From Acetobacter oryzifermentans (lineage in GTDB: Bacteria > Pseudomonadota > Alphaproteobacteria > Acetobacterales > Acetobacteraceae): a DNA stretch of 64,000 nucleotides. Of the stretch, positions 1 to 20,900 are shown piece after piece. A model generated the notes under the pieces. The model was not told where the DNA came from and searched no databases. It saw nothing but the letters and a program-made list of their open reading frames with translations. Position numbers and translations under genes: made by a program. Each line of letters opens with the position of its first letter. Position 1 is the first letter of the stretch. The DNA lies in assembly GCF_001628715.1 (NCBI RefSeq), contig NZ_CP011120.1, positions 682,001-746,000 of the forward strand. The letters are read 5' to 3'.

Positions 1-204
1 CACGGGGGCCAGAATAGTATTTATTTCTGCCAAATTCCCCGGTGCGGGCGCATTAAAGGCCAGCCGCATGAACAATGTGCCAGATTCCCGGTTGCTGAAC
101 TGGTGGGTTTCGGTTATGTCCGCACCTCGCTCCGCCAGAACGGATGTCACAGCCGCAACAATGCCGGGCTGATCCGGGCAGGAAAAAGTAAGAATAAACT
201 GCAT
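1..204 (-). CDS. purU: Formyltetrahydrofolate deformylase, N-terminal part
   Basis: The reverse strand from 204 reads MQFILTFSCPDQPGIVAAV and stays open to base 1, so only the first 68 residues are in the window. The start is an N-terminal ACT domain with the PDQPGIVAAV loop, followed by an alternating hydrophobic pattern and the segment ITETHQFSN. These are typical of PurU, which hydrolyses 10-formyl-THF to formate and THF in the cytoplasm. The formyltransferase-like catalytic domain lies outside the window, so another ACT-domain protein cannot be fully excluded. The start is the first ATG after a non-coding region. Nothing in the visible part is broken. Confidence 0.75.
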   Translation of the reverse strand, partial: MQFILTFSCPDQPGIVAAVTSVLAERGADITETHQFSNRESGTLFMRLAFNAPAPGNLAEINTILAPV

Positions 205-299
205 GCGGTGGCGTATGCTCCTTTGTTCTTCTACTGGGCCTGATTAAAGGGCGCAGGGGCGCAATGGCCTCATCTTGTGCCAGTGCACAGGGGGCTGCG

Positions 300-560
300 C
301 AATAGCTTGTGTTGCCACCTGTTTATAACCGGTGGGGCGTTGGGCGAAATGTGTGGATGGCCTGTGGATGAATCGTGGCAAGCCCGACTCGTGATGTTTT
401 TTTATGGTCAAGCCAATTCTGCGCTTGTCATATAACGAATCCCTAAAAATCCCAGAAAACAGCCGATTCTAAACATTTGTTCTCTGGCTTTGTAACAAAT
501 CTTATCCACAGAAAAGGGGGAGAGAACACGGGAAAAGCCTGTGGATAGATTTGTGGAAGG
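300..560. other. Non-coding region with DnaA-box-like cluster; candidate replication origin
   Basis: The gap between purU and the DUF488 gene (205-626) holds no convincing gene. It contains a perfect DnaA box TTATCCACA at 502-510, one-mismatch boxes on the opposite strand at 363-371 and 540-548, and a two-mismatch box at 352-360. Three GANTC (CcrM-type) sites lie at 370-374, 437-441 and 465-469. The tract from about 395 to 505 is AT-richer than its surroundings. This combination resembles alphaproteobacterial oriC regions. It is inference: dnaA, parAB and hemE are not in view, and DnaA-box clusters also occur away from origins. Confidence 0.35.
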
Positions 561-626
561 CAGCTTGCCCATAGTGTTTTCCCGCGTTTCCTGCTTTGTT
601 CTCTCATGCCCAAGGGGGGCGTTTTT

Positions 627-1001
627 TTAGGCGCGGTGGGCCAGATGCGCGGCCATATAGGCGGCCAGCACCACGGCCTCGTTATGTGCTTCATCCCGCG
701 CGCCAAACAGCAGGGTTATGCGGCCTTTGCGGGCCAGATCGGCCAGTTGCTGCACAGCTTGCGGGTTGGCGTTCAGCTCTGCCGTGTAGCGTTGGCAAAA
801 GCCCTCCCACTTGGCTGGGTCATGCGCAAACCATTCACGCAGGGCGGTGGTGGGGGCAATGTCTTTCAACCACAAGGTAAGGTGCGCGCGCTCCTTGCTC
901 ACGCCGCGCGGCCACAGCCTATCCACCAGCACGCGGGCACCATCATCGGGCTGGGCGTCTTCATATATACGGCGGATGCAGATATCGGGCTGATGGGGCA
1001 T
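627..1001 (-). CDS. DUF488 family protein (YeaO-like)
   Basis: This 124-residue cytoplasmic protein carries the DUF488/YeaO signature: the RRIYEDAQPDDGARVLVDRL region followed by WPRGVSKE near residues 30-38, and a C-terminal LLFGARDEAHNEA segment. The family has no firmly assigned reaction. The length is normal (about 115-125). The gene is divergent from the Rrf2-type regulator at 1118-1591, and a palindromic NsrR-like operator lies in the gap, 48 bp upstream of this start. NsrR-type control in response to nitrosative stress is therefore an inference for this gene. No clear terminator hairpin follows the stop codon. Confidence 0.8.
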   Translation of the reverse strand: MPHQPDICIRRIYEDAQPDDGARVLVDRLWPRGVSKERAHLTLWLKDIAPTTALREWFAHDPAKWEGFCQRYTAELNANPQAVQQLADLARKGRITLLFGARDEAHNEAVVLAAYMAAHLAHRA

Positions 1002-1048
1002 TGTGGCCTCTGCTTATGCTGAACGTTTGTGGTTTTAGAGTTTCAATT

Positions 1049-1071
1049 AAGATGTGTTTTTAAGGCATCTT
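1049..1071. promoter_or_regulatory. NsrR-type operator
   Basis: A 23-bp imperfect palindrome has half-sites AAGATG and CATCTT around an AT-rich centre. That is the organisation described for NsrR sites in proteobacteria. It sits between the divergent DUF488 and Rrf2-family genes, 46 bp upstream of the regulator's start, so it may serve both promoters and allow autoregulation. Confidence 0.65.
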
Positions 1072-1117
1072 AAAGAGATGAATGGGCATACCTGCCTTTC
1101 ATGGTGTAAAAGGCCCC

Positions 1118-1591
1118 ATGCGTCTGACATTGCACACAGATTATGCCCTGCGCACGTTGCTTTATCTGGCCGTGCATACCGACCGCCGTGTTTCCATAAA
1201 GGAGATTGCGCGGGTTTATGGCATTTCCGAAAACCACTTGGTTAAAATTATTCATCATCTGGGCCGGGGCGGGTTTGTAGATACGCTGCGCGGCCGGGGT
1301 GGTGGGCTTATGCTGGGGCGTGCGCCAGAGGATATTCGCATTGGCGATGTGGTGCGCCATACGGAAGATGATATGGCGCTGGTAAGCTGCATGTCTCCTT
1401 CCCCCGGTGTGCCGGGCAGTGCGGAATGTCTGCTGGCCCGTGCCTGCCATTTACGTGGCGCGTTGGGTGAGGCGCTGGATGCGTTTATGGCGGTGCTGGA
1501 TAGCCGCACGCTGGCCGATATGTTGCACACGCCAGAACGCCAGATTTTGCAGGAAGCCAAAGCCAACCAGCAGGCCCCCGTAACCCCCTAA
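1118..1591 (+). CDS. nsrR: Rrf2-family transcriptional regulator, NsrR-like
   Basis: This 157-residue protein is a winged-helix regulator of the Rrf2 family. It begins MRLTLHTDYALRTLLYLA, typical of NsrR, and has a recognition helix around residues 36-50 (ISENHLVKIIHHL) and a wing rich in RGRGGG. Cysteines C91, C104 and C110 fit a [2Fe-2S] or [4Fe-4S] cluster; C91 matches the position of the first NsrR ligand, although the spacing to the second is longer than in the enterobacterial protein. The start at 1118 was chosen over the in-frame ATG at 1082 because homologues begin MRLT. The operator at 1049-1071 supports an NO-sensing, autoregulated repressor. An IscR-like role is less likely given that operator. 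Confidence 0.8.
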   Translation: MRLTLHTDYALRTLLYLAVHTDRRVSIKEIARVYGISENHLVKIIHHLGRGGFVDTLRGRGGGLMLGRAPEDIRIGDVVRHTEDDMALVSCMSPSPGVPGSAECLLARACHLRGALGEALDAFMAVLDSRTLADMLHTPERQILQEAKANQQAPVTP

Positions 1592-1597
1592 AGCCAG

Positions 1598-1618
1598 CCA
1601 TCTCCAAGATGGGATTTT
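1598..1618 (+). terminator. Weak hairpin after the Rrf2 gene
   Basis: Stem CCATCT (1598-1603) pairs with AGATGG (1607-1612) over a 3-base loop and is followed by GATTTTGA. The stem is short and the T-tract is interrupted, so termination is uncertain. Confidence 0.35.
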
Positions 1619-1740
1619 GAAACTTGGCCCGCCTTGCCCTACAGTTGCAGGCACAGCGGAAAAGCATGGCGCACGCCCATTGCTGCGGCTTTTCTGCTTT
1701 GGGGCTCGCCCCGTTTCATGCACAAAAAAGGGCTACGGGT

Positions 1741-2511
1741 ATGACACGCAAGCAACCACAAACTGTTTTGGTAACGGGCGCCACCGCCGGATTTGGGCAT
1801 GCCATTGCCCTGCTTTTGGCCCAGCAGGGCTACCGCGTTATTGCCACAGGCCGCAGGCAGGAACGGCTGGAGGAACTGGCCGCCCAAGCCAAAGGCGAGA
1901 TCCTGCCTTTTAAACTGGATATGACAGACGCCCAAGCCCTTGCCGCCTTACCGCAAAGCCTGCCCGCAGGCTGGCAGGAGGTGGACGTGCTGGTGAACAA
2001 CGCCGGGCTGGCTCTGGGCTTGGAAAAAGCGTGGGAAACCAAGCTGGAAGACTGGCAGCGCATGATTGCCACCAACGTAACCGGCATGGTGGAAATAACG
2101 CGCGCATTGCTGCCCGGCATGGTGGCGCGTAACTGGGGGCATGTTGTGGCTCTTGGCAGCACGGCGGGCACGTATCCGTACCCCGGTTCCAACGTATATG
2201 GGGCTTCCAAGGCGTTTGTTGAGCAGTTCATGCGCAATTTGCGGAGTGATCTGCTGGGCAAGCAGGTGCGGGCCACCACCATTGCCCCCGGCCTGTGCGG
2301 CGGCAGTGAGTTCAGCCAGGTGCGGTTGGGAGATGCCACCAAGGCCGAGGATGTTTACAAAGGCACGCACCCGCTTTTGCCCGAAGATATTGCCCAAACG
2401 GTAGCATGGGTTTTAAGCTTGCCTGCACATGTGAACATCAACCATGTGGAAATGATGCCCACCTGCCAGGCCTCTGCCGGTTTGGCGGTAGATCGCACAA
2501 TGGCGGAGTAA
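1741..2511 (+). CDS. SDR-family NADP-dependent dehydrogenase (YdfG-like)
   Basis: This 256-residue classical short-chain dehydrogenase has the cofactor motif TGATAGFG at residues 12-19, RR at 38-39 (favouring NADP), NNAG at 86-89 and the catalytic S140, Y153 and K157 in the order expected. The overall sequence, including the VNITRALLPGM-like helix and the SEFSQVR segment, resembles YdfG-type 3-hydroxy acid/serine dehydrogenases that oxidise L-allo-threonine, serine or 3-hydroxypropionate-type substrates. The substrate here is not proven. The start at 1741 was preferred to the ATG at 1624, because the cofactor-binding strand begins within ten residues as in homologues. crcB follows after 9 bases, so the two are probably co-transcribed. 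Confidence 0.85.
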   Translation: MTRKQPQTVLVTGATAGFGHAIALLLAQQGYRVIATGRRQERLEELAAQAKGEILPFKLDMTDAQALAALPQSLPAGWQEVDVLVNNAGLALGLEKAWETKLEDWQRMIATNVTGMVEITRALLPGMVARNWGHVVALGSTAGTYPYPGSNVYGASKAFVEQFMRNLRSDLLGKQVRATTIAPGLCGGSEFSQVRLGDATKAEDVYKGTHPLLPEDIAQTVAWVLSLPAHVNINHVEMMPTCQASAGLAVDRTMAE

Positions 2512-2520
2512 GGTTTACGA

Positions 2521-2955
2521 ATGTCTTTTTATTCCTGCCTGATTGTTATGGTCGGGGGCGCGCTGGGCACACTGGCGCGCTATTTTGTTTCTGTTCTTAC
2601 TGCACCCATCAGCCGGTATATTCCGTGGGGCACCATTATTGGCGTTAACATGGTGGGCTCCTTTGTTATCGGCTTTTTTGGCACGCTTACGCTGGCATCT
2701 GGCCGGTATCCGGTATCGGAAACCACGCGGCTGTTTGTTATGCTGGGCATATGCGGCGGGTACACCACGTTTTCTTCCTTCAGCCTGCAAACGCTGGATC
2801 TTATTCGGGTTGGGGGCTGGGGCCGTGCGTTGGTGAATGTGGTGCTTTCTGTAGCACTTTCTGTTGGGGCGGTGGCTATGGGGCACATGCTGGCGTCTCG
2901 CATGAACTCCCACGCCATTTTGGTGGCGCAAACCAACACGGAAGAAGAAGTGTGA
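2521..2955 (+). CDS. crcB: Fluoride ion channel CrcB/Fluc
   Basis: This 144-residue inner-membrane protein has four hydrophobic segments and the CrcB hallmark GGYTTFSSF at residues 79-87, plus an asparagine at 43 in GVNMVGSF and an early arginine in LGTLARY. Fluc proteins work as dual-topology dimers that export fluoride passively. The length is normal for the family. It follows the SDR gene by 9 bases with no promoter in between and no fluoride riboswitch visible, so it probably depends on upstream transcription. The tail after residue 130 is hydrophilic and acidic (TNTEEEV), which is unremarkable. Confidence 0.93.
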   Translation: MSFYSCLIVMVGGALGTLARYFVSVLTAPISRYIPWGTIIGVNMVGSFVIGFFGTLTLASGRYPVSETTRLFVMLGICGGYTTFSSFSLQTLDLIRVGGWGRALVNVVLSVALSVGAVAMGHMLASRMNSHAILVAQTNTEEEV

Positions 2956-3059
2956 GGCTATTTTTTCTTCTATTTTCAAGGGGCAAAATGCGATAGGGTT
3001 GAGTTTGTAATTTTTATGTTGCCGGTTGTCCGGGTATTTAAGAAAAGGCATGCACGCTG

Positions 3060-6000
3060 ATGGCTGATTCAACCCGTAACGTTTCCAGCGGGCAGACCCT
3101 AACCGGGCACATCATCAACACGAATGAAGTTGTAAATGTTGCCAAAGGCGGCACTGTTGTGAATACAGTGCTGGATCCTACAAATGCCTATAATCAGGAT
3201 GATAGCCTTGATCCTGCTGAACTGGACGTGCATGGCTCTGCGCTGAACACGCAGATGAACGATGGCTATGTAGAGGTTTACAATGGCGGCGTTCTTTCTG
3301 GCGTAACAGCAGGCAATAACGCGCAACTTACCGTGGATGTAGGCGGTAGCGCCACAAACGTGCAGATTGCAAGTGCCGGGGTTGTTACCGTTGGGGATGA
3401 TCAGGGCGGCACGTTTAAAAACTCTGCCTACCTTAGTGCTGCCACCGTTTCTTCTGGCGGGAACATATTTGCCGAGGCAGGCGGCATTGTAACCAGCGCA
3501 AATGTTTTGGCGGGTGGGTATATAGAAGCAGCAGAAACGGGCGGGCTTCTTTCTGGTAACACCATACAGTCCGGCGCAATGGAATATGTGGATTCAGGGG
3601 GCACTGTCTCGCATGAAACAATCCAGAGCGGTGGTTTTTTCATGGCGGAAAATGGCGCCAATGTAAGCGATGTAACGGGTGCGCTGCCGGGTTATGCCGT
3701 TGCCACAGATGATGATGTGGTGCTGCAAACGCACGTTACAGCAGATGGCAAGCCTTTTTCTGGTGTAGATATTTCTACCCTGCCAGCAGAGCAGAACGCC
3801 ACGCTGATGATGTATGTAACATCTGGCGCAGAAGTTGATGCCTTAACGCTTGCCGCCCCCAATCATGAGGGCAACAAAACAGATGTTAATTTACACGGCA
3901 CTCTGAGTGGCGTAACCGTTGCCACAGCAGATGCCAGTGCTTACACAGACCCGGTTAGCACCATATTTGCTTATGGGAATGCAGTGGTGGAAGGCACTAT
4001 CAGTGGTGGCAGGCCTGCTACTGTTTCTGGCGCTATCCCGGCTTTGAATATCTCTATGGAATCCGGCACCACGTTGCAAAACGCGACTGTGGGCGGAGGG
4101 GTTTGGATATATGGGGATGAACAGGTTGCTTCCAGCCTATGGGTTAAAAGTGGAGCCGCCCTTACAGGGGATGTTACAGTAACATCCGGCGCTTTGGTAA
4201 CCGTAGAAGGTGGCAGTGCAAGCGGCCTGACGTTTGAAGCCGGTTCGGAAGAACAGCTTCTGGCTGCGGGCGGGAGTCTGAGCGGGGAAACCTTTCAAGA
4301 CGGCAGCCTACTCAGCGCCCAGAACTCTGATATCTATCATTATTCAGGCACTACCTCATCCATACAGGCTGCGCCAGCCACAATTACCAGCAACACATTT
4401 GCCAGCAAAACCAGCGCGATCATCTATGGTGAGGATACGCAGTTTTCAAACAACACCGTAAATGGTGGCTCGGTTATTGTGTTTGGGTCTAACCAAACAC
4501 TTACCAGCAATACATATACCTCTGGCGCTTCTATTGTTCTGGAAGGTGCTGTTGCCCAAACAGCAGATATTCTGGGTAGTGGTGTTTCGGAAAATGTGCA
4601 GAACGCCAAAGATACCCTGCAAAATATGACACTGCAAAACGGGGCTACGCTGCAACTTGATTTAGGCAGCGCCAACCATGTTACAATGGAAACCGCCGTT
4701 TCTGTTTACGTTGGGGGTGATGCCACGCTTAGCAACACCACCATTGTTTCTGGCGCTACGCTTCAGTTCAACCAAAACTCCAACCTGCAAAATGATATCT
4801 TGCAGGACGGAGCTATTCTGATTCCGCAATTTTATAGTGACATGGGCATAAGCGGCAATACGTTTACGTTCACCAATTCGGAAACGGGGCAGGCGGAAAC
4901 ACTGCAAATAGAGGGTGGTTCTGGCAATTATAAGCTGGGCGTTCTGGATGATCAGGGTATTTACGAGATTGAAGATGGCACCCCCTGTTATTGCCGCGGC
5001 ACGCTGATAGAAACAGATCGGGGTGAAGTGCCGGTAGAACACCTGCAAATTGGTGATCAGGTGCGCACGCTGGAACATGGTTTTCGGCCTATCCGCTGGA
5101 TCGGCCGCCGTGCGTATTCTGGCCAGTTTGCAGCAGGCAACCCGGATGTGCTGCCAGTTATTTTCCGCCGAGGTTCCTTGGCGGAGGGGCTGCCCCGGCA
5201 GGATCTCTCTGTTTCTCCACTTCACGCCATGTATCTGGATAACGTGCTGGTGCCTGCTGTGGCGCTGGTGAATGGCACATCCATCATGCAGGCAGAGGCG
5301 ATGGATGAGGTGGCGTATTTCCATATCGAACTGGAAAGCCACGATGTTATCTTTGCCAATGGCACGTGGTCTGAAACCTTTGTGGATGATGAATCGCGCG
5401 GCATGTTCCACAATGCGGCGGAATACGCGGCACTTTATCCATCAGCCCCCAAACAACCTGCGCAGTATTGCGCTCCAAGGGTAGAAGAAGGCCCCCGGCT
5501 GGAGGCCATTCGGAAACGGTTGAACGCCCGTGCTGGCGTGCGGCCGCGCGCGCAGGGGCCGCTGGAAGGCTATATTGATACGATAACCCGCACCCGTCTG
5601 ACAGGATGGGCCCGGAACCCGGAAAACGGCGCCCCTGTGCGCTTGCGTATTTTGGATTGCGGCGTAGTGCTGGGCGAGGTTGTGGCCAACCAGCCCCGTG
5701 CCGATATGCAAGATGCCGTTGGCTTTGTGTTTGAAGTGCCCGGCGGCCTGAGCGTGCATGAAAGGCATGTGCTGGAAGTGCAGCGCGTGGCTGACCATAC
5801 AGCTCTTGGCAACAGCCCGTGGATGCTGGATTTGGCCCCAGCCAAACCCGTGCAGGCCGTTCTGGCCCGCACCCCCGCAACACCGCTGCTTGGATATGTG
5901 GACTGCGCAACCCGTGAACATGTGGCAGGCTGGGCGCACAGCCCCACCATGCCGGATGAACCCGTAGCTTTGCAGATTCTGGATAACGGGCAGCTTGTGG

Positions 6001-7511
6001 CTTCTATTGTGGCCAACGGTTTGCGGCCAGATGTGCGCCGCGCTGGCGGCTGTGCAACAGAGCGCTGCGGGTTTGATGTGCTGCTCCCCACAGGTCTTTC
6101 TCCCTTTACGCGGCATGTATTGGAAATCCGGCGTGAAAGTGATGGCGCATTGCTGGGTGCCCCGCATGTGCTGGAAGCGGTAGATGCGTTTGATCCCACA
6201 ATGCAGCAGGCTATTGCGCAGGCGGTTACAGCCGCAACGGGCGAGGCTGAACAGGCGCAGGTGCTCTCCTTTTTACTGGGGCAGGTAGAAAAACTTACGC
6301 AGGCCCATGCACGAGCACAAAGCGGGCAGGATATGCGCAATCTGGCCGCGGCTCGTGCACGCAGGGGGCAGGGTGTGGCGCCGCTGGCTGTGCGCAAACG
6401 GGCATTGGTGGTGGATACACTGCGCCCCGATACCGGGCGTGATGCTGGGTCTCATGCCGTGCTGTCTCATATGCGCGCACTTGTGGCGTTGGGGTATGAT
6501 GTCAGCCTTGTTGCGGCAGACCAGATGGAGGGGGCCGCCACGCTGGAAGTTCTGCCAGAAGTTACGGTGTGCACGTTGCCATTCTATTCATCGGTAGAAG
6601 ATGTGCTGCGCCGTCAGGCTGGTAGTTTTGATGTGGTGTATCTGCACCGCATGGATACGGCCACGCGCTATGCGGCGCTCGCACGGCGGCACCAGCCGAA
6701 GGCACGGGTTGTGTATGCGCTGGCCGATCTGCACTGGCTGCGTTTGGGCAGGCAGGCGCAGGTGCAGGGTCGGCCAGAACTTATGGCCCGTGCCCGTACC
6801 GTAAAACAGGCAGAATACAGTGCTATGCTGTTGGCCGATGTGGTAATGACCCATTCTACCGTTGAGGCTGATCTGCTGCGGCGTGAACTGCCGCAAGTGC
6901 GGGTGCAGGTTACACCGTGGGATGTGCCAGTGCGCATGCGTGTTCCGGGGTTTGCCCGGCGTGATGGTGTGGTGTTTGTAGGCAATTACGCACACGCCCC
7001 CAATGCAGATGCCGCACGCTGGCTGGTGCAGGATATTATGCCACGCGTATGGGCCACCAATCCGGAAATTCGCTGCCTTTTGGCCGGGGCCAGTATGCCC
7101 GCCCAACTGCGCGCCCTTGCGCGTGATGGTGTAGAAATTTTGGGCCATGTGCAGGATTTGCAGGCCCTGTTTGATAGTGTGCGCCTAAGCGTTGCGCCAC
7201 TGCGTTTTGGCGCAGGTGTAAAAGGCAAGGTGCTGGATAGTTTGGCCGCTGGGGTGCCCTGTGTGCTTTCCCCCGCAGCGGCAGAAGGGCTGGAACTGCC
7301 GCAGGATCTGGCTGCTTTTGTGGGACAGGATGCAGATGCATTGGCTGCTGCCATTGTACGGTTGCATCAGCAAGCCAGTGCCAACAGCAAGGCCAGCCGA
7401 GCTGGGCGGGCCTTTATGCGCGCAGGCTTTACGGCCCAGCAGGTGCAACAGGCTTTGGCAGCCGCCATTGGTGCACGCGCGCCCCAGCAGATGTCACGGC
7501 AGGCTGGATAA
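3060..7511 (+). CDS. Giant fusion: strand-loop-strand repeats, Hint domain, GWA repeats, glycosyltransferase
   Basis: This uninterrupted 1483-residue ORF has four parts. Residues 1-640 are Gly/Ser/Thr-rich repeats of autotransporter-passenger type (runs such as SSGQTLTGHI and AENGANVSDV), without a signal peptide. Residues about 641-800 form a Hint domain beginning CYCRGTLIETDRGE at C643, with S719-P-L-H722 and the closing ETFVDDESRG. Two related beta-type units start at 835 and 943, each with GY-D, GWA and RHVLE motifs. Residues about 1114-1470 resemble a GT-B glycosyltransferase, with the late motif GVKGKVLDSLAAGVPCV. Hint domains are known self-cleaving modules; cleavage at C643 would separate the passenger from the transferase, but this is inference. 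No secretion signal or beta-barrel is evident. Upstream crcB ends 104 bases away, so an own promoter is likely. A strong terminator follows. Confidence 0.85.
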   Translation: MADSTRNVSSGQTLTGHIINTNEVVNVAKGGTVVNTVLDPTNAYNQDDSLDPAELDVHGSALNTQMNDGYVEVYNGGVLSGVTAGNNAQLTVDVGGSATNVQIASAGVVTVGDDQGGTFKNSAYLSAATVSSGGNIFAEAGGIVTSANVLAGGYIEAAETGGLLSGNTIQSGAMEYVDSGGTVSHETIQSGGFFMAENGANVSDVTGALPGYAVATDDDVVLQTHVTADGKPFSGVDISTLPAEQNATLMMYVTSGAEVDALTLAAPNHEGNKTDVNLHGTLSGVTVATADASAYTDPVSTIFAYGNAVVEGTISGGRPATVSGAIPALNISMESGTTLQNATVGGGVWIYGDEQVASSLWVKSGAALTGDVTVTSGALVTVEGGSASGLTFEAGSEEQLLAAGGSLSGETFQDGSLLSAQNSDIYHYSGTTSSIQAAPATITSNTFASKTSAIIYGEDTQFSNNTVNGGSVIVFGSNQTLTSNTYTSGASIVLEGAVAQTADILGSGVSENVQNAKDTLQNMTLQNGATLQLDLGSANHVTMETAVSVYVGGDATLSNTTIVSGATLQFNQNSNLQNDILQDGAILIPQFYSDMGISGNTFTFTNSETGQAETLQIEGGSGNYKLGVLDDQGIYEIEDGTPCYCRGTLIETDRGEVPVEHLQIGDQVRTLEHGFRPIRWIGRRAYSGQFAAGNPDVLPVIFRRGSLAEGLPRQDLSVSPLHAMYLDNVLVPAVALVNGTSIMQAEAMDEVAYFHIELESHDVIFANGTWSETFVDDESRGMFHNAAEYAALYPSAPKQPAQYCAPRVEEGPRLEAIRKRLNARAGVRPRAQGPLEGYIDTITRTRLTGWARNPENGAPVRLRILDCGVVLGEVVANQPRADMQDAVGFVFEVPGGLSVHERHVLEVQRVADHTALGNSPWMLDLAPAKPVQAVLARTPATPLLGYVDCATREHVAGWAHSPTMPDEPVALQILDNGQLVASIVANGLRPDVRRAGGCATERCGFDVLLPTGLSPFTRHVLEIRRESDGALLGAPHVLEAVDAFDPTMQQAIAQAVTAATGEAEQAQVLSFLLGQVEKLTQAHARAQSGQDMRNLAAARARRGQGVAPLAVRKRALVVDTLRPDTGRDAGSHAVLSHMRALVALGYDVSLVAADQMEGAATLEVLPEVTVCTLPFYSSVEDVLRRQAGSFDVVYLHRMDTATRYAALARRHQPKARVVYALADLHWLRLGRQAQVQGRPELMARARTVKQAEYSAMLLADVVMTHSTVEADLLRRELPQVRVQVTPWDVPVRMRVPGFARRDGVVFVGNYAHAPNADAARWLVQDIMPRVWATNPEIRCLLAGASMPAQLRALARDGVEILGHVQDLQALFDSVRLSVAPLRFGAGVKGKVLDSLAAGVPCVLSPAAAEGLELPQDLAAFVGQDADALAAAIVRLHQQASANSKASRAGRAFMRAGFTAQQVQQALAAAIGARAPQQMSRQAG

Positions 7512-7557
7512 GCAGCATATGCGCATAGAGCCTTGAACTTAGTATAAAATTTGGCAC

Positions 7558-7597
7558 AAAAAAGCTGCGGCCCGCAAAACGGAACGCAGCTTTTTTT
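7558..7597. terminator. Bidirectional rho-independent terminator
   Basis: Twelve-base arms AAAAAAGCTGCG (7558-7569) and CGCAGCTTTTTT (7585-7596) give a hairpin with T-tracts on both strands. It lies between the convergent fusion gene and VOC gene and can serve both. Confidence 0.9.
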
Positions 7598-7652
7598 GTG
7601 TTCACTCCCGGCGGAAGGGTGTTCCGCCAAGGTTAAACGCAACGGGCTAGGC

Positions 7653-8036
7653 TTAGGCCGGAACCTTGCAGCCAATGCACAGCTTGTTGCCATCCGGGTC
7701 CCGCAGGTAAGCCAGATACAGCGGGCCCATGGAGGTTTGGCGCACGCCGGGTGGGTTTTCAATGGCCTGTCCGCCATTGGCAACACCAGCTTTGTGCCAT
7801 GCGTCGGCCATAGCGGTTGTAGCGGCTTCCAGCCCAATGGTGCCACCGTTGGCGGGGGTGGCGGGTTTGCCGTCCAGCGGCTTGGTGACTACAAAGCGCT
7901 GGCCGTGCTTGGCGTAAACCAGGCGGCCATTGGGGTGAATTTCTGAAGGGGGAATATCCATAGCTTCAAAAATAGCATCGTAGAATTTTTTGGAACGGGC
8001 AATATCGTTGCTGCCCACCACAATATGCGTAAACAT
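7653..8036 (-). CDS. VOC-family (glyoxalase/bleomycin-resistance fold) protein
   Basis: This 127-residue cytoplasmic protein opens with MFTHIVVGSNDIARSKKFYD, the classic first beta-alpha unit of the vicinal oxygen chelate fold, and ends with LAYLRDPDGNKLC. One metal-ligand candidate is H4; the usual terminal Glu in the DPDGN region appears replaced (KLCIG). That suggests a non-glyoxalase-I function or different ligands. Many such proteins are uncharacterised; YP_-type glyoxalase superfamily naming is as far as the sequence allows. It converges with the fusion gene. A 6-bp inverted repeat (TCCGTC/GACGGA, 8049-8066) overlaps its probable SD. Confidence 0.8.
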   Translation of the reverse strand: MFTHIVVGSNDIARSKKFYDAIFEAMDIPPSEIHPNGRLVYAKHGQRFVVTKPLDGKPATPANGGTIGLEAATTAMADAWHKAGVANGGQAIENPPGVRQTSMGPLYLAYLRDPDGNKLCIGCKVPA

Positions 8037-8105
8037 CAGATGTAAATCTCCGTCTGTTATGACGGAACGAACCTTACGCGCCTGCTTGCAAGGGGGAAAG
8101 GCCGC

Positions 8106-8930
8106 TTAGCTTATGCCCGCAATGCGCGCAAATTTACGCTGACGGCTGAAAAACAGTTTTTCCGCAATCCAGAACACAGCGCTCTGCCATTTGCCGTGGG
8201 GGGAAACGCCAATGGTTTTGAACACCATGTTGGTGACGCGCCGCAGATGCTGGGGCTGATAGTTTTTCATGGCGCGGGACATATACGCCGCAATGCAGCG
8301 CGTGTGGTCATACGGCATATCTGCGGGGTCATTGGTGGTGTGGTAGGCGGATGCCAGTTCGTCATCCTCGCTTTCCGTTACGCGGCCAAGGGCAATGCGT
8401 GCGCGTTGCAGCGTGCCAATTTTTTCGCGTTTTAGGTAGCGGTTCATGTGGTCGTAAAACAGTTTGAAGTGGCGGAACTCATCCGCGGCTATCTGTTTAC
8501 AAAGGGCTTTTAAAACGGGTTCTTCCGTAGCATCGGCCAGTGCGGAATAAAAAGAAGAGGTGCCTGTTTCCACCATACATCGGGCAATCAGTTCCCCCGT
8601 GCGGGAGCCACGGACAGATTGCTCCACTTCCAGCGGAATCTGGTAAAAATCCCGGTAGCGCTCAAAGGCGGCGTGGTAATCCCACGTAGGGTCTGCCAGC
8701 ATGGCCCAACGGCCCAGTGCATCACCATGCTGCACTTCTTCTATGGCCCAGTGGTCTGCTGCTTCTCTAAAGTCCGGATCATCGCGGAACACATTATTAA
8801 GGTACAGCGCGTAATCCACACTGTTGCGTTCCACCACCGAGGCCGCCTTGATGGCAGGCACCAATTGCGGATCTACTTTAGAGGGATCAAACTGATCCCA
8901 AGGCAGTTGGTCGATCTGCCAGTGTTTCAT
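8106..8930 (-). CDS. Ferritin-like di-iron domain protein
   Basis: This 274-residue soluble protein is mainly helical, with an evenly spaced carboxylate/histidine set expected for a di-iron four-helix bundle: E34, E65-x-x-H68, E121 and E151-x-x-H154. The sequences EEVQHGD and DEFRHFK are the two ExxH motifs. Related families include acyl-ACP desaturases and rubrerythrin-like oxidases; the reaction is unknown. Start codon ATG at 8930 is preceded by GGGAGG at a good distance. It is followed by the oppositely coded terminator region of no shared operon, and upstream lies the terminator of the thioesterase gene, so it is probably monocistronic. Confidence 0.75.
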   Translation of the reverse strand: MKHWQIDQLPWDQFDPSKVDPQLVPAIKAASVVERNSVDYALYLNNVFRDDPDFREAADHWAIEEVQHGDALGRWAMLADPTWDYHAAFERYRDFYQIPLEVEQSVRGSRTGELIARCMVETGTSSFYSALADATEEPVLKALCKQIAADEFRHFKLFYDHMNRYLKREKIGTLQRARIALGRVTESEDDELASAYHTTNDPADMPYDHTRCIAAYMSRAMKNYQPQHLRRVTNMVFKTIGVSPHGKWQSAVFWIAEKLFFSRQRKFARIAGIS

Positions 8931-9019
8931 AAGCCCGGGCCTCCCTTTCCTGCCTTTGTTTACGCGTGTGCGTGGTTTATATGCCGTGCAGGTTGGGTTT
9001 GCGCCAGAGCCAAGGCATG

Positions 9020-9060
9020 AAAAAACCTGATGGCCGGATTTCTAGACCATCCGGCCTTGG
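9020..9060 (-). terminator. Rho-independent terminator after the thioesterase gene
   Basis: On the minus strand, GGCCGGAT and ATCCGGCC arms (9032-9057) form a hairpin, followed shortly by TTTTTTC. It separates the thioesterase gene from the ferritin-like gene. Confidence 0.8.
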
Positions 9061-9164
9061 CGTGAAAAGCTGAAAAAAGGCCCTACAGCCAGATAACACT
9101 CAAGGTGTGTTCTGGCTGCCTTACTATAACGCGGCAGGGGCTTATAAAGGTGCTGCGTGCTGTT

Positions 9165-9605
9165 TTAGCCTGCGTTGGGGGGCACAATTTCTGGCAGCTC
9201 ATCACCCGGCTGCGCGGGCGGAAGCGGGCGGGGGCGGCGGTTTTCATCCAGCGCCACAAAAATAAATTCGCCTTCCGTTACCTTGGATGTCAGATGTGTG
9301 TGGCGGGCGCGGCGCCATGTTTCTACATGAATGGTAAGCGATGTGCGGCCCGCGCGGATAATGCGGGTGTAGATGCTCACCTCATCCCCCACCACCACGG
9401 GTTCCATAAACACAAGGCTGTTGATGGCAATGGTGGCACACCGCCCATTGGCCCGAAAAGCTGCCGTGGTGCCCGCTGCAAGATCCATCTGAGAAACAAT
9501 CCACCCCCCAAACACGTCTCCCGCCGGGTTGGTATCTGTGGGCATGGCTACCACGCGGATGGTGGGGATATCGGTTGGGATTTGCGAATTATCTGAACGG
9601 GGCAT
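9165..9605 (-). CDS. yciA: Acyl-CoA thioesterase, YciA family
   Basis: This 146-residue hotdog-fold protein carries the YciA/acyl-CoA hydrolase motif MPTDTNPAGDVFGGWIVSQM at residues 21-40, including N26, and continues with D41 and the LVFMEPVVVGDEVSIY strand. Such enzymes hydrolyse short to long acyl-CoAs to free acid and CoA in the cytoplasm. The length is slightly above the E. coli protein because of a proline-rich tail (PRPLPPAQPGDELPE). AAGGA lies about 10 bases before the ATG at 9605. It appears monocistronic, with its own terminator at 9020-9060. Confidence 0.88.
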   Translation of the reverse strand: MPRSDNSQIPTDIPTIRVVAMPTDTNPAGDVFGGWIVSQMDLAAGTTAAFRANGRCATIAINSLVFMEPVVVGDEVSIYTRIIRAGRTSLTIHVETWRRARHTHLTSKVTEGEFIFVALDENRRPRPLPPAQPGDELPEIVPPNAG

Positions 9606-9789
9606 GCAGTACTGTTCCTTCTGGCAAGGGCCTTATGTTCTGACTTGCAGGGAAGAGAGCCGCCCTGCACGAAAGCATTGCCAGCAGGATAGCGCGTAAA
9701 CATGGCGGGGTGCAGCTTCAGTTTTTCGTGATCAAACCTGCCTTGAGCGTAACGCGGGGGCGGTTTGGCTGGCGCGTGCGGGGCCTGCG

Positions 9790-9901
9790 TGGCGGCAATG
9801 TAAAATTTTTCAAAACGTTTACTGTTTATAAAGGAATTTAAAATAAAAATAAATAACGTCCCGCGTTAATGCTTAATAAATAATTAACCGGGGCTTTATT
9901 C
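9790..9901. other. AT-rich leader upstream of Hint gene
   Basis: The 296-base gap 9606-9901 has no gene. Its last 110 bases become strongly AT-rich (runs such as AATTTAAAATAAAAATAAAT), unlike the surrounding coding DNA. The likely promoter of the Hint gene lies here, but no -35/-10 pair stands out among the many AT words. Confidence 0.5.
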
Positions 9902-11617
9902 ATGCAAAAGGACCCGTTGGCCATGGCCATCAATCTACTGTTTGACAAGGTTATAGATTACTCTGTTGAGGATCTGCTTAACCTTAACGTAACTGGCAAC
10001 ATTCTGGTCACGCGGGATGCTGGCACCCCGGCGGGTGACCCCGTGGTGGTAAACCTGAGTAATATTGCCGATGTGCAGGCGCTCAGCCGCATTGTGGTGG
10101 AAAACGGCGCAACAGTGGTGGCGGGTGGCGGCCTGGCATCTGTTGGGGCCATTAAAAATATTACGGTAGATGGTGGCACGCTGGAACTGGGGGGAAATAT
10201 TATTTCCGCCAATGTGCTAAGTTCTATCAATGTTGGGCCAGATGGCGGCAACATCAAGGTGGATAGTGCAGGCGTTGGTGTGGGTGTACTTTCCAACGTG
10301 GTCACGTTTATTGATTCAAACGGTAAAACAACAAGCACCGTTCCCCCAAACTTTACGGTAGATTTTCCGGATTCCTCCAATGTGTGGGGGTATTATGATC
10401 CACTCACAAACACCACCACGGTGGGGCTGGATCTGAATATTCTTAACGTTATTGACGTATCGCTTGGCCCAAGCATTAAGGTTTCTGGCAACCCATTTGG
10501 ATTAACATGGTATATTCCCAAGGAATGGACAAACACCTCCAACCCGGATGGCACGGGCGGTATTCTTATCTGCTATCTGGCTGGAAGCATGATCCGCACC
10601 CCCAATGGTGATGTAGCGGTAGAAGACCTGCGCGTGGGTGATACCGTGCTGGCTTATGGAAGGGGTGAAGCAGAACCCCGCCAGATTGTATGGGCAGGCC
10701 ATGCACAGGCTACGGTAAACCCCACCTTGGCGGATGATGAGGCCGGATACCCCGTGCGTATTGTGCAGGATGCCATAGCAGATGGCGTGCCTTACAAGGA
10801 TATGCTGGTAACGCCCGAACACTGCCTGTATTTTGATGGGCGCTTTGTGCCGGTACGTATGCTTGTAAATGGTAGCAGCATTTTTTACGATCGTACGTTT
10901 ACATCCTACACCTATTACCACATAGAAACGCCCGAACATGCTGTTATCATGGCGGATGGTGTGCTGAGCGAAAGTTACCTGGATACGGGCAATCGTACCA
11001 GCTTCCGCAGTTCTGGCGTTGTGCTGGCCAGCATTGGCAGCAAACCGCGCAATTGGTCTGTAGATGCCGCAGCCCCTTTGTGCACGCAAAAAGAATTTGT
11101 GCAGCCTTTGTTTGAAAAAATTGCAAACAGGGATAACGCTTTGGGGCATGCCTCTGCACAGCCTGCCCCGCGTGAGTTGCTGACAGACCCGGATATCTGC
11201 CTGCAAACCAACACCGGCAAGCGTATTCGGGCCATAAAGGTGCAGGATGGGTATTATACCTTTATGCTGCCAGAAAATGTGCAAAGCGTGCAGATTGTCT
11301 CCCGCGCAAGCCGCCCGTGTGATGTAGAAGGCCCGTTTGTAGATGACCGGCGCAAATTGGGTGTGGCCATTGGGCAGGTAACCCTGTGTGATACCCAAAA
11401 TATGCAGGAAATTTCAACGCATTTACAAAATGAAGATATCCCCGGCTGGTACGTTCTGGAACACGGTGGCGCAGCCCGCTGGACAAATGGCAACGCCATG
11501 CTGGATCTGGAAAGCCAATCAACATCTGGCTTGCGTATGCTAAGCATGCAGGTATTGGCTGCTGGCCCGTATCTGGCATCAGACACGCCAGCACATCGGC
11601 TTGCCAAAACGGCCTGA
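9902..11617 (+). CDS. Hint-domain protein (paralogue A)
   Basis: This 571-residue protein has a short strand-loop-strand passenger (residues about 10-220, rich in V, N, G and T, no signal peptide) and a Hint domain starting CYLAGSMIRTPNGDVAVEDL at C224. The TPEH motif is at T304-H307, and the domain closes with SESYLDTGNR. A C-terminal domain (about 400-571) contains VSRASRPCDVEGPFVDDRRKLGVAI-type sequence shared with the protein at 18782-20509. The Hint residues for self-cleavage are intact. The ATG at 9902 lacks a good SD; ATG 9923 is preceded by AAAGGA and is a real alternative. An AT-rich leader lies upstream and a strong terminator downstream. Confidence 0.8.
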   Translation: MQKDPLAMAINLLFDKVIDYSVEDLLNLNVTGNILVTRDAGTPAGDPVVVNLSNIADVQALSRIVVENGATVVAGGGLASVGAIKNITVDGGTLELGGNIISANVLSSINVGPDGGNIKVDSAGVGVGVLSNVVTFIDSNGKTTSTVPPNFTVDFPDSSNVWGYYDPLTNTTTVGLDLNILNVIDVSLGPSIKVSGNPFGLTWYIPKEWTNTSNPDGTGGILICYLAGSMIRTPNGDVAVEDLRVGDTVLAYGRGEAEPRQIVWAGHAQATVNPTLADDEAGYPVRIVQDAIADGVPYKDMLVTPEHCLYFDGRFVPVRMLVNGSSIFYDRTFTSYTYYHIETPEHAVIMADGVLSESYLDTGNRTSFRSSGVVLASIGSKPRNWSVDAAAPLCTQKEFVQPLFEKIANRDNALGHASAQPAPRELLTDPDICLQTNTGKRIRAIKVQDGYYTFMLPENVQSVQIVSRASRPCDVEGPFVDDRRKLGVAIGQVTLCDTQNMQEISTHLQNEDIPGWYVLEHGGAARWTNGNAMLDLESQSTSGLRMLSMQVLAAGPYLASDTPAHRLAKTA

Positions 11618-11668
11618 AGGTTTGGTATAAAAAGTGGGGTGGTTTGAAAACACCCTGCTCTACACGTT

Positions 11669-11718
11669 AAAAAACGGGGTATCGGCTGCTTTTGTGCAAG
11701 TCGGAGCCCCGTTTTTTT
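11669..11718 (+). terminator. Rho-independent terminator after Hint gene A
   Basis: AAAAACGGGG (11670-11679) pairs with CCCCGTTTTT (11707-11716), followed by TT. The loop is long (27 bases) and can fold internally. Located 50 bases after the stop. Confidence 0.75.
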
Positions 11719-11840
11719 ATTGGCTTTGGGCTTTTTGTGCGGCGTGCAGACCCCACACCATGCGGCGTGCCCACTACAAAGCCTTGCAAGGGCAGCCATA
11801 CTGGCCCACGTGGTACATAAAAATGTAAGATACTGCCGCG

Positions 11841-12992
11841 TTAGTTGCGGATGAGCATGTAATTAACCGTCACATCAAAGTTAATGAACTTATCTTTCAT
11901 ATCCGGCGGCACGGGTGGCAGTTGCGCCCCGTGGAACATGCCTATTGTTGCGGAATCCAGATCGGAGGAGCCAGAGCCGCTGGTCAGGAACACTTTGAAC
12001 ACATGCCCCGTGCGATCTAGAATAACATGCACCGAGGATGGGCCTTCATCCCCTCGTTCTGCCGCATCTGGCGGGTAATACAGGTGGCGCTGGATCCATT
12101 CATCAATTTCTGCCGCGTAATCACTGCTCACGCCATGCACTGTGGTGCGCGATGCGTAATGGGCGTTCAGCTCACCATTTTCCACCATCGGGCCAATGGA
12201 AAGATCAACCGGGGCGCTGGAACCACCGGGGCGGCCATGCTGCTTGCGGCGTGGGGCTGGGGCCTCGTTAAAGGACATATCCATTGGGTGGTCCAGCGGA
12301 GAGGGCTTGTGGTGGCTGGGTCGGGGCGTGGGCTTGGCGTGCGGTGTGGGGCGCGCAGGCTGTGGCGTTTTGGGTTTGTGGCCCGTAACCGGGTGAGAGG
12401 GTTTGGTTTGTGTTTTATTTTCCACCGGCTTGGGCAGCCCATCATCAGATGGCGGCAGAATGGGGGCGGAGGGTGCTTCCTCTGCCGGGGGTGTGGGCGT
12501 GGGTTCGGCATCTGCCGGGGTTGGGGGTTCGCTGCTGGTCTGGGCGGCGTGTTTGGCCTCGTTCCCGCCACCAGCATCGGGGGATTGTGCGCCCACCATA
12601 CCGCTGGAAGCCTGCGGTTGAGAAAACACCATTTCCACCCCGGCGGATTGCTGGGCGGCATCGGGCGAGCCTTGGGGCTGATGGTGCGTGGCCTTATACA
12701 ACAAGGCGGCCAGCAGCAGCACATGTGCGAGAAAAGAGGCCGTAAGCACAGGCCCCAATGTGGGATCTGCGTATATTTCCTTGCGGATAAGCGGGGTAGA
12801 GGTGCCGCGTACGTTAACGCCGCGTGTGCGCGGTACAGGTGCTGCGGGAAAAAGCCGTGCGCGCACATCTTCCGTATCCGGTTGGGATGTGCGCTGGCTG
12901 GCGGGGTTTTCCGCAGCGTTTGTGCCGCTGTCGGGCAGCAGCCGGGGTTCCTGTCTGGCAGGATGGCGGGAAGAACTGAACCTGTCGATCAT
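11841..12992 (-). CDS. tonB: TonB-family energy transducer with extended cytoplasmic tail
   Basis: The 383-residue protein has a single membrane segment at about 81-99 containing S86-x3-H90, the Ser/His pair by which TonB couples to ExbBD. A long Pro/Lys/His-rich periplasmic spacer (about 130-270, repeated PTP, PKP and HPK words) is followed by a TonB C-terminal domain with YYPPDAAERGDEG and VFLTSGSGSSDLDSATIG. It delivers proton-motive energy to outer-membrane receptors; the TonB-dependent receptor at 15505-17955 is a nearby candidate partner. No exbB or exbD is in the window. The cytoplasmic tail of about 80 residues is much longer than in classical TonB. Start 12992 was chosen over 13046 because the extra residues look non-coding; it is not certain. 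Confidence 0.82.
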   Translation of the reverse strand: MIDRFSSSRHPARQEPRLLPDSGTNAAENPASQRTSQPDTEDVRARLFPAAPVPRTRGVNVRGTSTPLIRKEIYADPTLGPVLTASFLAHVLLLAALLYKATHHQPQGSPDAAQQSAGVEMVFSQPQASSGMVGAQSPDAGGGNEAKHAAQTSSEPPTPADAEPTPTPPAEEAPSAPILPPSDDGLPKPVENKTQTKPSHPVTGHKPKTPQPARPTPHAKPTPRPSHHKPSPLDHPMDMSFNEAPAPRRKQHGRPGGSSAPVDLSIGPMVENGELNAHYASRTTVHGVSSDYAAEIDEWIQRHLYYPPDAAERGDEGPSSVHVILDRTGHVFKVFLTSGSGSSDLDSATIGMFHGAQLPPVPPDMKDKFINFDVTVNYMLIRN

Positions 12993-18781: not shown

Positions 18782-20509
18782 TCAGGCAGAGCGTGTGTGT
18801 GTTTCTGCCTTTTGGTGGTTTTCCACAACATAGGGGCCACCTGCCTGTACGGTAATGGACAGCATGCCAATTTTGCCATCGGTAAGGTATCCATCCAGAG
18901 GCAGCAGGGCATCTCCATCTGTCCATGCGCAGCCTGCGGCTTCCGCAGCGTACCAACCTGCGGGTTTTTCTGCCTGAAGGTGCACGTTAATATTATGCAC
19001 ATCTTCGGCGCACAGAAGGTGTATGTTTGCAATGGCAACGCCCAGATAGCGGCGGTCATTCACAAACGGGCCAATAATATCTACCGGGCGGCTGGCGCGA
19101 GAAACAATGCGTACGGATTGTGTGTTAGGTGGCAGCATAAAGCTGTACTGGCACGTGGTGTGGCGCGCAGGGTGCACAATAGCTCCGGACTGCGTAACAA
19201 GGTGCAGGTTGGGGTTGGTGGTTGTTTCAACATTTCTTGCAGATACATGGCATCCGGCAATGCTGTTTGTACGATAGGAGAGCGCGTGAAACAGAGGCTC
19301 CACAAAAGTACGATCTATGCATAAAGGCGCTGCGGCATCGTGCTCCCAGCTTTTGGTGGGCGCGCGCCCCAGCATAACAACGCTACCATTCTGCTGGAAG
19401 GATGCGCGGTTGCCCGTATCCAGATAGCTTTCCGTCAGCACACCATTTGCCATGATGATGGTGTGTTCTGCGGTTTCAATGTGGTAATATTCGTAAGATA
19501 CAATGGATGTATCATAGAAAATGGAACTGCCATTCACCAGCATACGTGCTGGCACAAACTTGCCATGAAAGAACAGGCAATGTTCTGGTGTGATCAGCAG
19601 ATCTGTGCTGGGTACATGCTCAGCCAACGCATTGGCAACAATGCGGATGGGGTAGCCTGCCTCATCCTGCGTAAGGGCGGTGTTTGCCTTTGCCGGGGCA
19701 TGACCAGCCCATGTGACGCGGCTAACTTTTCTTGCACCATCTGAATAGACAAAAACAGCATCGCCAATCTGGATATCTTCAATGGCGCGTGGGCCTTGTG
19801 GTGTTTCAATCAGGGCGCCTGCAAGAAAGCAGTCGATAGTTGCGGTATCACCATCATAGCCGATTTTATCGGGGGATTCTCCATCTACAAAGGTAAGGGA
19901 ATCTACCAGAACATCATCTGCATTTGCGGCGTTAACAACTTTGTAGGTGTTACTGCCCAAAGGAACCCATTTAATATGGATGCCCGCGCTACCATCGGAA
20001 GATTGGCGGCTGCCAAAAGTGATGGCGTCGTAACTGGAAAAGTTAATAACGGAGGGAACAGTGTTTTGCGCCCCCGAAAGATTAAGATAATTGGTGTTGC
20101 CATTGTTGGGTGTTGGCCAGAAAGACGCAACAGACGTAAAACTGCCTGAAGGCTGCACGGTAGAGTTATCAATCAGAACGGTGCCGCCCGTCATATCTCC
20201 ATAGCTTATCACATACAGAGAGTTGACCCGAAGCGTGCCACTGTAATCATCCATGCTGATATTGTTATCAACAGTAAAGCCAACGCGTTGCGAGGAATCT
20301 CCGGTGTAATTGTTCAACGCAATATTTGTATCACCTGTAATGGTCAGGCTGGAGATTTCAACCGCAGATGGAATGTTGATTGTCTGGTTTTGCGTGGCAT
20401 TTGTGTCGATGACAACATCCGAATCTGAACCTGGGACGCCGTTAGACCAGTTAGCTGCGTTGTTCCAGTTGCTATCACCTGCGGTGCCTGTCCATGTATC
20501 GGTTGTCAT
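18782..20509 (-). CDS. Hint-domain protein (paralogue B)
   Basis: The 575-residue protein has an N-terminal passenger with two short repeats (NWNNAANWSNGVPGSDSDVV, then Thr/Asn/Ser-rich strands to about 220) and no signal peptide. A Hint domain follows from C227 (CFLAGALIETPQG) with T307-P-E-H310 and a closing TESYLDTGNR. The C-terminal domain of about 170 residues matches that of the gene at 9902-11617, for example SVRIVSRASRPVDIIGPFV and YLGVAI. Gene lengths and positions of C and TxxH are almost identical, so the two are paralogues. The start at 20509 (MTTDTWTG) was chosen over ATG 20602; SD evidence is weak (AGGG). An AT-rich tract lies upstream. Confidence 0.8.
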   Translation of the reverse strand: MTTDTWTGTAGDSNWNNAANWSNGVPGSDSDVVIDTNATQNQTINIPSAVEISSLTITGDTNIALNNYTGDSSQRVGFTVDNNISMDDYSGTLRVNSLYVISYGDMTGGTVLIDNSTVQPSGSFTSVASFWPTPNNGNTNYLNLSGAQNTVPSVINFSSYDAITFGSRQSSDGSAGIHIKWVPLGSNTYKVVNAANADDVLVDSLTFVDGESPDKIGYDGDTATIDCFLAGALIETPQGPRAIEDIQIGDAVFVYSDGARKVSRVTWAGHAPAKANTALTQDEAGYPIRIVANALAEHVPSTDLLITPEHCLFFHGKFVPARMLVNGSSIFYDTSIVSYEYYHIETAEHTIIMANGVLTESYLDTGNRASFQQNGSVVMLGRAPTKSWEHDAAAPLCIDRTFVEPLFHALSYRTNSIAGCHVSARNVETTTNPNLHLVTQSGAIVHPARHTTCQYSFMLPPNTQSVRIVSRASRPVDIIGPFVNDRRYLGVAIANIHLLCAEDVHNINVHLQAEKPAGWYAAEAAGCAWTDGDALLPLDGYLTDGKIGMLSITVQAGGPYVVENHQKAETHTRSA

Positions 20510-20559
20510 AAGTTGCCCTAAAAAGTTATATAATTCGCAACATATAAACTCACGATAAG

Positions 20560-20900
20560 ATTCTGCAAGCATTTTTAAATATATAAAGGGGCAGTAATAC
20601 ATAATGTTTTTAGAAAAATTTATTGTGGTAATTATTTTATTTTATAAATGTAAATATAAAATTATCTATTTTATAGATATAGTATAATTAAGTTAACATT
20701 TTGAGGTTTATTGATAATATTTTAACAAATAAATGAGATTAAATTATATTTTATAAGTATTTATTTCAAATAAGTTTACGTGTATTTAAAGTTGTTTTTA
20801 TTTATTTGTGTGTTCGGGTTAACTTTTCTGGAATGCCAAAGAAAAGCCACATTTTTTAATGGGGAATGATTTTTTTATTTTATAAAAGGAAAAAACTTTT
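20560..20900. other. AT-rich intergenic tract
   Basis: Some 340 bases have very low GC, with many TTTTATAA- and ATTTAAA-like words and no open gene. It contrasts strongly with the flanks. It lies upstream of the Hint paralogue B (minus strand) and downstream of the ppk2 terminator. It could be a promoter region bound by H-NS-like proteins, or a relic of horizontally acquired DNA; no inverted-repeat or transposase trace was recognised. Confidence 0.7.

Follow-up and report, generated by a model that had tools for sequence, protein, structure and literature searches.

A Hint domain paired with a GT4-type glycosyltransferase in a predicted autoprocessing unit of acetic acid bacteria

The locus

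Hint domains cut, splice or conjugate proteins, and we describe here a gene in which such a domain lies between a repeat-rich passenger and a glycosyltransferase. The gene occupies positions 3060–7511 on the forward strand of a 64,000-nucleotide stretch of Acetobacter oryzifermentans DNA (GCF_001628715.1, contig NZ_CP011120.1, positions 682,001 to 746,000), hereafter the window, whose coordinates are used throughout. It is a single open frame without an internal stop and, as the original prediction from the DNA alone had stated, encodes one polypeptide of 1483 residues; a homologue of equal length, P0001, is 98% identical over residues 630–1483. The passenger (residues 1–642; 3060–4985) is followed by a Hint_2 domain (residues 643–794; 4986–5441), two domains that we call GWA 1 (residues 836–929; 5565–5846) and GWA 2 (residues 945–1045; 5892–6194), and a glycosyltransferase (residues 1112–1473; 6393–7478), all on the forward strand. 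The Hint_2 profile (PF13403) matches residues 642–777 at E=1.2e-46, with 159.2 bits against a curated cut-off of 28.4, and the domain does sit exactly between the passenger and the GWA/transferase part. The AlphaFold model of residues 625–1483 is confident (mean pLDDT 89.5, pTM 0.64); a fold search with the Hint-to-glycosyltransferase model returned a list filled by glycosyltransferases. No RNA element scored above the gathering score in window positions 1–12500.

The passenger is predicted to form a strand-loop-strand beta-helix like that of TibA. Its earlier description as adhesin-like repeats is borne out by a match to the TibA passenger (4q1q, E=4e-7) and is weak by domain model, the TIGR04415 match (model name O_hepto_targRPT) reaching 21.1 bits against a 30-bit cut-off; PF16168 AIDA had no match in the window protein. 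A profile search of solved structures with the passenger returned TibA, AIDA and Ag43 passengers together with chance-like ribosomal matches. There is no clear signal peptide: by a crude hydrophobicity measure with a reference value of 1.8, the N-terminal hydrophobic stretch scores 1.07, versus 1.81–2.82 in eight controls picked by eye, and the reference value is attained by one of 24 Hint proteins of the same genome and nine of 118 relatives.

The GWA region consists of two ~95-residue domains, defined by our own hidden Markov models; GWA 1 is beta-rich, with strands visible in the structural model, and Pfam offered no match up to E=0.1 for GWA or for the ~155-residue tail domain of the paralogues described below. 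The glycosyltransferase, matched by Glyco_trans_1_4 over residues 1303–1437 (E=3.7e-22), has the two Rossmann-like halves and the sugar-nucleotide motifs of GT4 retaining enzymes of the GT-B fold. The segment from K1388-x-K1390 to E1409-G (7221–7286), with Asp at 1393, is probably the sugar-nucleotide site; of 80 transferase rows, 79 keep K1390, 78 keep E1409 and all keep H1137 and W1287, and most motif residues are equally conserved whether the enzyme is fused to Hint, encoded separately beside it or found alone. The nearest NCBIfam transferase model, TIGR03087, scores 93 bits (E=2e-26) against a cut-off of 317, and we reject membership on that score. Identity with Aah/TibC is likewise rejected, TIGR04414 giving no match up to E=1.

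The Hint domain

Which reaction might this Hint domain perform? The residues named in the original prediction are present and conserved: C643, at the predicted cleavage site G-T-P/C643 (4977–4988), is found in 119/119 homologue rows covering the position, and Ser and His of block B, S719-P-L-H722 (5214–5225), in 121/121. E772, at the end of the domain, is equally constant (121/121 module rows; 70/70 non-redundant Hint sequences covering it). The claim that the end motif is kept has to be corrected, for the domain ends in FANG-TWSE-TF, and the C-terminal His-Asn that inteins and type A bacterial intein-like domains use for splicing is absent from this TWSETF terminus. Without His-Asn, one N-terminal reaction is expected, like that of type B bacterial intein-like (BIL) domains or hedgehog proteins, and protein splicing is rejected. 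As described in PMC4031507, type B BIL domains possess Cys1 together with block B, lack block G and cleave without splicing; the sequence features among these are all present here. The relevant part of PMC4686929 treats inteins in general terms only. A profile search of solved structures with the Hint domain found one BIL domain, 2lwy, at E=0.0009.

In 68 Hint open reading frames (ORFs) of relative loci the Cys is retained in every case, and all but two (L091, a fused form, and L125) also keep the His of block B. On these patterns of conservation, the domain has probably been maintained in an active state. Two further cysteines deserve mention: C645 forms a C-x-C pair with C643 in 107/119 rows, and C804 (5469–5471), just past the domain, reaches a conservation of 97% or more across the module family and occurs in 63/68 of the relatives' Hint ORFs. 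Together these cysteines could serve as a redox switch or a second nucleophile.

A portable C-terminal unit

The search for homologues gave 405, of which 120 were listed, and all 120 carry both the Hint_2 and the glycosyltransferase Pfam domains. What precedes these domains varies widely. By count from the table, 51/120 passengers contain PF16168 AIDA repeats, 11/120 contain PF03372 nuclease-type domains, and PhoD, RTX/serralysin and Pesticin (lysozyme-like) domains occur once each, while 55/120 have no Pfam domain at all; four of the listed homologues were rescanned with Pfam. Some passengers are giant, e.g. that of a 4306-residue protein with 13 AIDA stretches. Among pairs with 60–70% module identity, no similarity between the passengers is seen in 187/553 (119 of 121 rows were usable, and passengers of 80 residues or fewer were excluded), and even P0002, whose module is 95.6% identical to that of the window protein, matches its passenger at 72.0%. 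The tripeptide GTP nevertheless directly precedes the Cys in 79/119 rows, often behind unrelated passengers, which argues that the cut site belongs to the C-terminal unit. Judged from these homologues, Hint-GWA-GWA-glycosyltransferase is a reusable cassette behind unrelated extracellular-type passengers.

Portability bears on the possibility that the protein is a self-glycosylating adhesin, in which the transferase would decorate the passenger repeats in cis (Aah/TibC act in trans) before Hint releases the passenger. Strand-loop-strand repeats are O-heptosylation targets, and the sub-threshold TIGR04415 match and the TibA similarity fit this idea. We think it unlikely, given that the same transferase unit also stands behind nuclease, phosphatase and protease passengers and that neither TIGR04414 nor TIGR03087 claims the enzyme; a single unit serving so wide a range of passengers is more easily reconciled with a target at the common junction or acceptor than with one in the repeats.

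Fused, split and lone forms

If the two halves always lay in separate genes in relatives, the window gene might be a local fusion artefact. We examined 80 fetched loci, 20 of 74 places from a first search of relatives and 60 of 97 from a family search; many of the former were picked since only the transferase half had aligned, and the latter omit places in the same genome and genus, several transferase-only matches and low scores. Since loci were partly picked for looking split, the shares below are not frequencies. The fetched loci hold 82 transferase ORFs: 35 are fused to Hint, 26 follow immediately after a Hint ORF of the same strand, 18 do not and three are partial. With one pair just outside the cut-off (L099) moved from lone to split, a tree of 80 classified places (the window and 79 others) carries 36 fused, 27 split and 17 lone transferases, the last without Hint directly upstream. 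Contig ends (e.g. at L117) limit this upstream census, and some of the 17 may have an unseen Hint gene; in three of them (L083, L088, L125) the fetched stretch contains a Hint ORF at another place. The neighbours of eight lone transferases were listed; these loci are GC-rich, and many of their ORFs seem spurious.

Split forms consist of two neighbouring genes, passenger-Hint(-GWA) and GWA-transferase, broken between or beside the GWA domains; the gap is exactly 17 nucleotides in five pairs and ranges from overlap to 105 nucleotides. On its well-supported branches the tree requires five or more switches of the fused label, and fused forms span 15 genus codes. An accidental, meaningless fusion is therefore already contradicted and has next to nothing left in its favour: lone GWA-transferase enzymes do exist, but 36/80 places are fused, across those 15 genus codes, and both domains occur in all 120 listed homologues. 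We reject the local fusion artefact on the recurrence of the fused form.

The split pairs also speak to purpose. The original prediction suggested that the Hint domain, if active, would divide the precursor into passenger and transferase halves or transfer the passenger to an acceptor, yet Cys, Ser719 and His722 are all retained in 27/27 split pairs, so freeing the transferase cannot be the domain's only purpose. Hint processing, as read from these residues, is maintained where there is no transferase to cut off; this is our main argument against the view that the domain serves to split off the transferase.

GWA-transferase matches at E≤1e-70 occur in 77/299 family genomes and 35/102 genera, and in 9/337 genomes of a class-level scan at E≤1e-45; a single alignment spanning Hint and transferase was found in the class scan only in the window's genome and one other of the same family. 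In another family, one genome (G574) carries two pieces on a single contig, a Hint-GWA match at 51% identity and, apart from it, a GWA-transferase piece. Named genomes were scanned for the unit irrespective of fused or split form, which gave 16 loci: in Acetobacter pasteurianus, A. orleanensis, A. indonesiensis, A. conturbans, A. fallax, A. senegalensis and A. sicerae, in Gluconobacter japonicus, G. thailandicus, G. frateurii and Acidiphilium rubrum, and in five metagenome-bin records, some labelled Pseudomonadaceae and Thermomicrobiaceae. Lone GWA-transferase proteins are found, for example, in Methylobacterium.

Proposed mechanism

Hint and transferase distances correlate in the split pairs (r=0.78, 27 pairs) as in the fused forms (r=0.80, 35 forms, L091 omitted), with 0 of 999 permutations as high; together with the retention of the Hint residues in split pairs, this makes the two look like a functional pair. 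What can be read directly from the sequences, then, are the domains, their conserved residues, portability, the fused and split forms and the co-inheritance of Hint and transferase. The reading that we prefer, with a probability of about 0.5, is that autoprocessing at GTP/C643 releases or hands on the passenger and that this same product is the target of the paired transferase. The bond before C643 would be activated by an N-S acyl shift at P642–C643, assisted by S719, H722 and, as we read the domain, H755; lacking the C-terminal His-Asn, the reaction would stop there. The passenger, hydrolysed off or transferred to a nucleophile, would then leave with a C-terminus ending in GTP, and the transferase, whether attached to the Hint half or encoded by the adjacent gene, would add sugar to the same passenger or to a surface glycan where the passenger ends up. 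That cleavage occurs, and which acceptor, sugar, target and export route are used, we infer.

Several observations weigh against this proposal. Pro stands at -1 of the Cys in 103/119 rows, an unusual residue there, and Pro at this position would form a thioester slowly. Invariance of the catalytic residues is by itself modest evidence, as 31% of Hint positions are at least 97% conserved. Shared genome descent may add to the correlation between Hint and transferase, and each also occurs without the other. A nucleotide-sugar transferase and an extracellular-type passenger require different compartments. Within the transferase, residue 1393, in our reading the position of the second glutamate in the EX7E motif of GT4 enzymes, varies among the 80 rows (Asp 38, Glu 29, other or gap 13), and split forms keep R1231, H1225 and R1382 less strictly (20, 20 and 17 of 27).

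Could the gene instead encode a bifunctional surface protein in which an inert Hint domain acts as a structural spacer? The Pro at -1 would suit such a role, as would the degenerate copies that occur: Cys is lost in one paralogue (L043 5693–6883) and block B in L091 and L125. The catalytic residues are nearly universal, though, while passengers diverge as fast as the comparison with P0002 illustrates, and we regard an inert domain as quite improbable.

Hint paralogues and neighbouring genes

The genome of A. oryzifermentans encodes at least 24 Hint_2 proteins; 23 end in a common domain of ~155 residues, and only the window protein has GWA-GWA-glycosyltransferase. The tail pattern (GPFVDDRR ... 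GW ... WT.G.A.L) lies at window positions 11111–11614 and at 22 other places in the genome. Two such proteins are encoded in the window itself, one at 9902–11617 on the forward strand (passenger, Hint and tail, no glycosyltransferase; PF13403 E=3.6e-35) and one at 18782–20602 on the reverse strand. A fold search with the Hint-tail model of a sister protein was filled by Hint matches; the Hint residues read from the paralogue alignment are those of the paralogues other than L046 3727–5136.

These paralogues are relevant to another alternative to release by autoprocessing, namely a hedgehog-like conjugation in which the GWA-transferase part would serve as an adduct recognition region and present a sugar or glycolipid that attacks the Hint thioester, such that the C-terminus of the passenger would be fixed to a surface glycan. 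The order of passenger, Hint and recognition region is that of hedgehog, and one Hint type has two alternative C-terminal regions in the same genome, GWA-transferase once and the ~155-residue tail 23 times. The indifference of the unit to passenger type points to a reaction at the common junction, and Hint is retained where the transferase is a separate gene. The acceptor is hypothetical, though, Hint and transferase may work in different compartments, and GWA and the tail have neither a Pfam name nor an assigned ligand; we consider conjugation possible but doubtful. Its most far-reaching form, which we would not expect to hold, is a bacterial counterpart of hedgehog: the GWA-glycosyltransferase would, as a recognition region, make or hold a sugar acceptor to which the thioester passes a swappable extracellular passenger (adhesin, nuclease, phosphatase or protease), yielding C-terminal glyco-conjugates, and the other 23 proteins would use a second recognition domain with another acceptor.

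Comparison of coordinates places eight of the genome's 18 serine-recombinase (PF00239) matches beside Hint_2 genes (L041 14718–15338; L045 8415–9050 and 11777–12403; L048 2703–3299; L049 5714–6346; L050 1445–2035; G000:C1:2379669, beside the Hint gene of L042; L043 5059–5613). Seven of the eight have an inverted repeat between recombinase and Hint gene, with arms of 14–18 bp spanning 119–148 bp and scores of 11–16; the regions upstream of 11 control Hint genes score 7–10, and shuffles no more than 12. L043, where the degenerate paralogue adjoins another Hint gene and the recombinase-like ORF, has just an AT-rich repeat pair (score 11 or 8). The inverted repeats are probably invertible promoters, and these Hint proteins hence phase-variable. 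No recombinase ORF was seen beside the window gene at 3060.

As for export, type I secretion substrates lack an N-terminal signal peptide and are linked to an ABC/HlyD exporter. The window protein shows no strong N-terminal hydrophobic stretch; in the genome one HlyD profile match exceeds its cut-off and the ABC exporter matches fall under the PrtD cut-off, none of them adjacent to the window gene. At L051 (71–5562) a Hint gene (4168–5562) lies divergently beside what are, judged by their N-termini, an apparent C39-type ABC exporter and an HlyD-like gene, whose profile matches (G000:C1:346618–349652) are both below cut-off; this arrangement is a possible export link for Hint proteins.

Comparison with known systems

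To our knowledge, no Hint domain has previously been found paired with a glycosyltransferase, covalently or as a neighbouring gene, and, in keeping with the original prediction, our literature search of open-licence PMC papers turned up no description of this order; the papers listed for one query dealt almost entirely with HINT2/HINT1, which are unrelated proteins. The combination of Hint_2 and glycosyltransferase is visible in databases and its parts are of known kinds; new, in our reading of the sequences, are the pairing, its portability and its repeated fusion and splitting, which links protein autoprocessing to glycosylation. The proteins concerned form a large group in acetic acid bacteria that has been little studied, and a new route to the anchoring or decoration of surface proteins could emerge from them.

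Among known systems, AIDA-I/TibA passengers pair with Aah/TibC heptosyltransferases, and the window protein resembles them in combining a similar repeat passenger with a glycosyltransferase; it differs in that no autotransporter barrel is among its Pfam matches, its transferase is GT4-like and a Hint domain links the halves. TIGR03087, a glycosyltransferase of the XrtA/PEP-CTERM system, is the nearest curated transferase model by profile score, and our enzyme falls far below its cut-off. Within Hint_2 (PF13403) the window domain is a clear member, alone among the 24 of its genome in having GWA-GWA-glycosyltransferase. Type B BIL domains differ in that here a glycosyltransferase follows Hint, passengers swap, and cleavage is predicted from sequence. 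In Hedgehog the Hog part joins Hint to a sterol or adduct recognition region, the term used for the post-Hint region of hedgehog-related proteins in portions of PMC2362128 and PMC7906309, whereas here GWA-GWA-GT-B follows Hint instead. The sterol recognition region of Hog passes cholesterol to the thioester. That a single Hint type is followed by either of two C-terminal regions in the A. oryzifermentans genome nonetheless resembles the hedgehog-related proteins.

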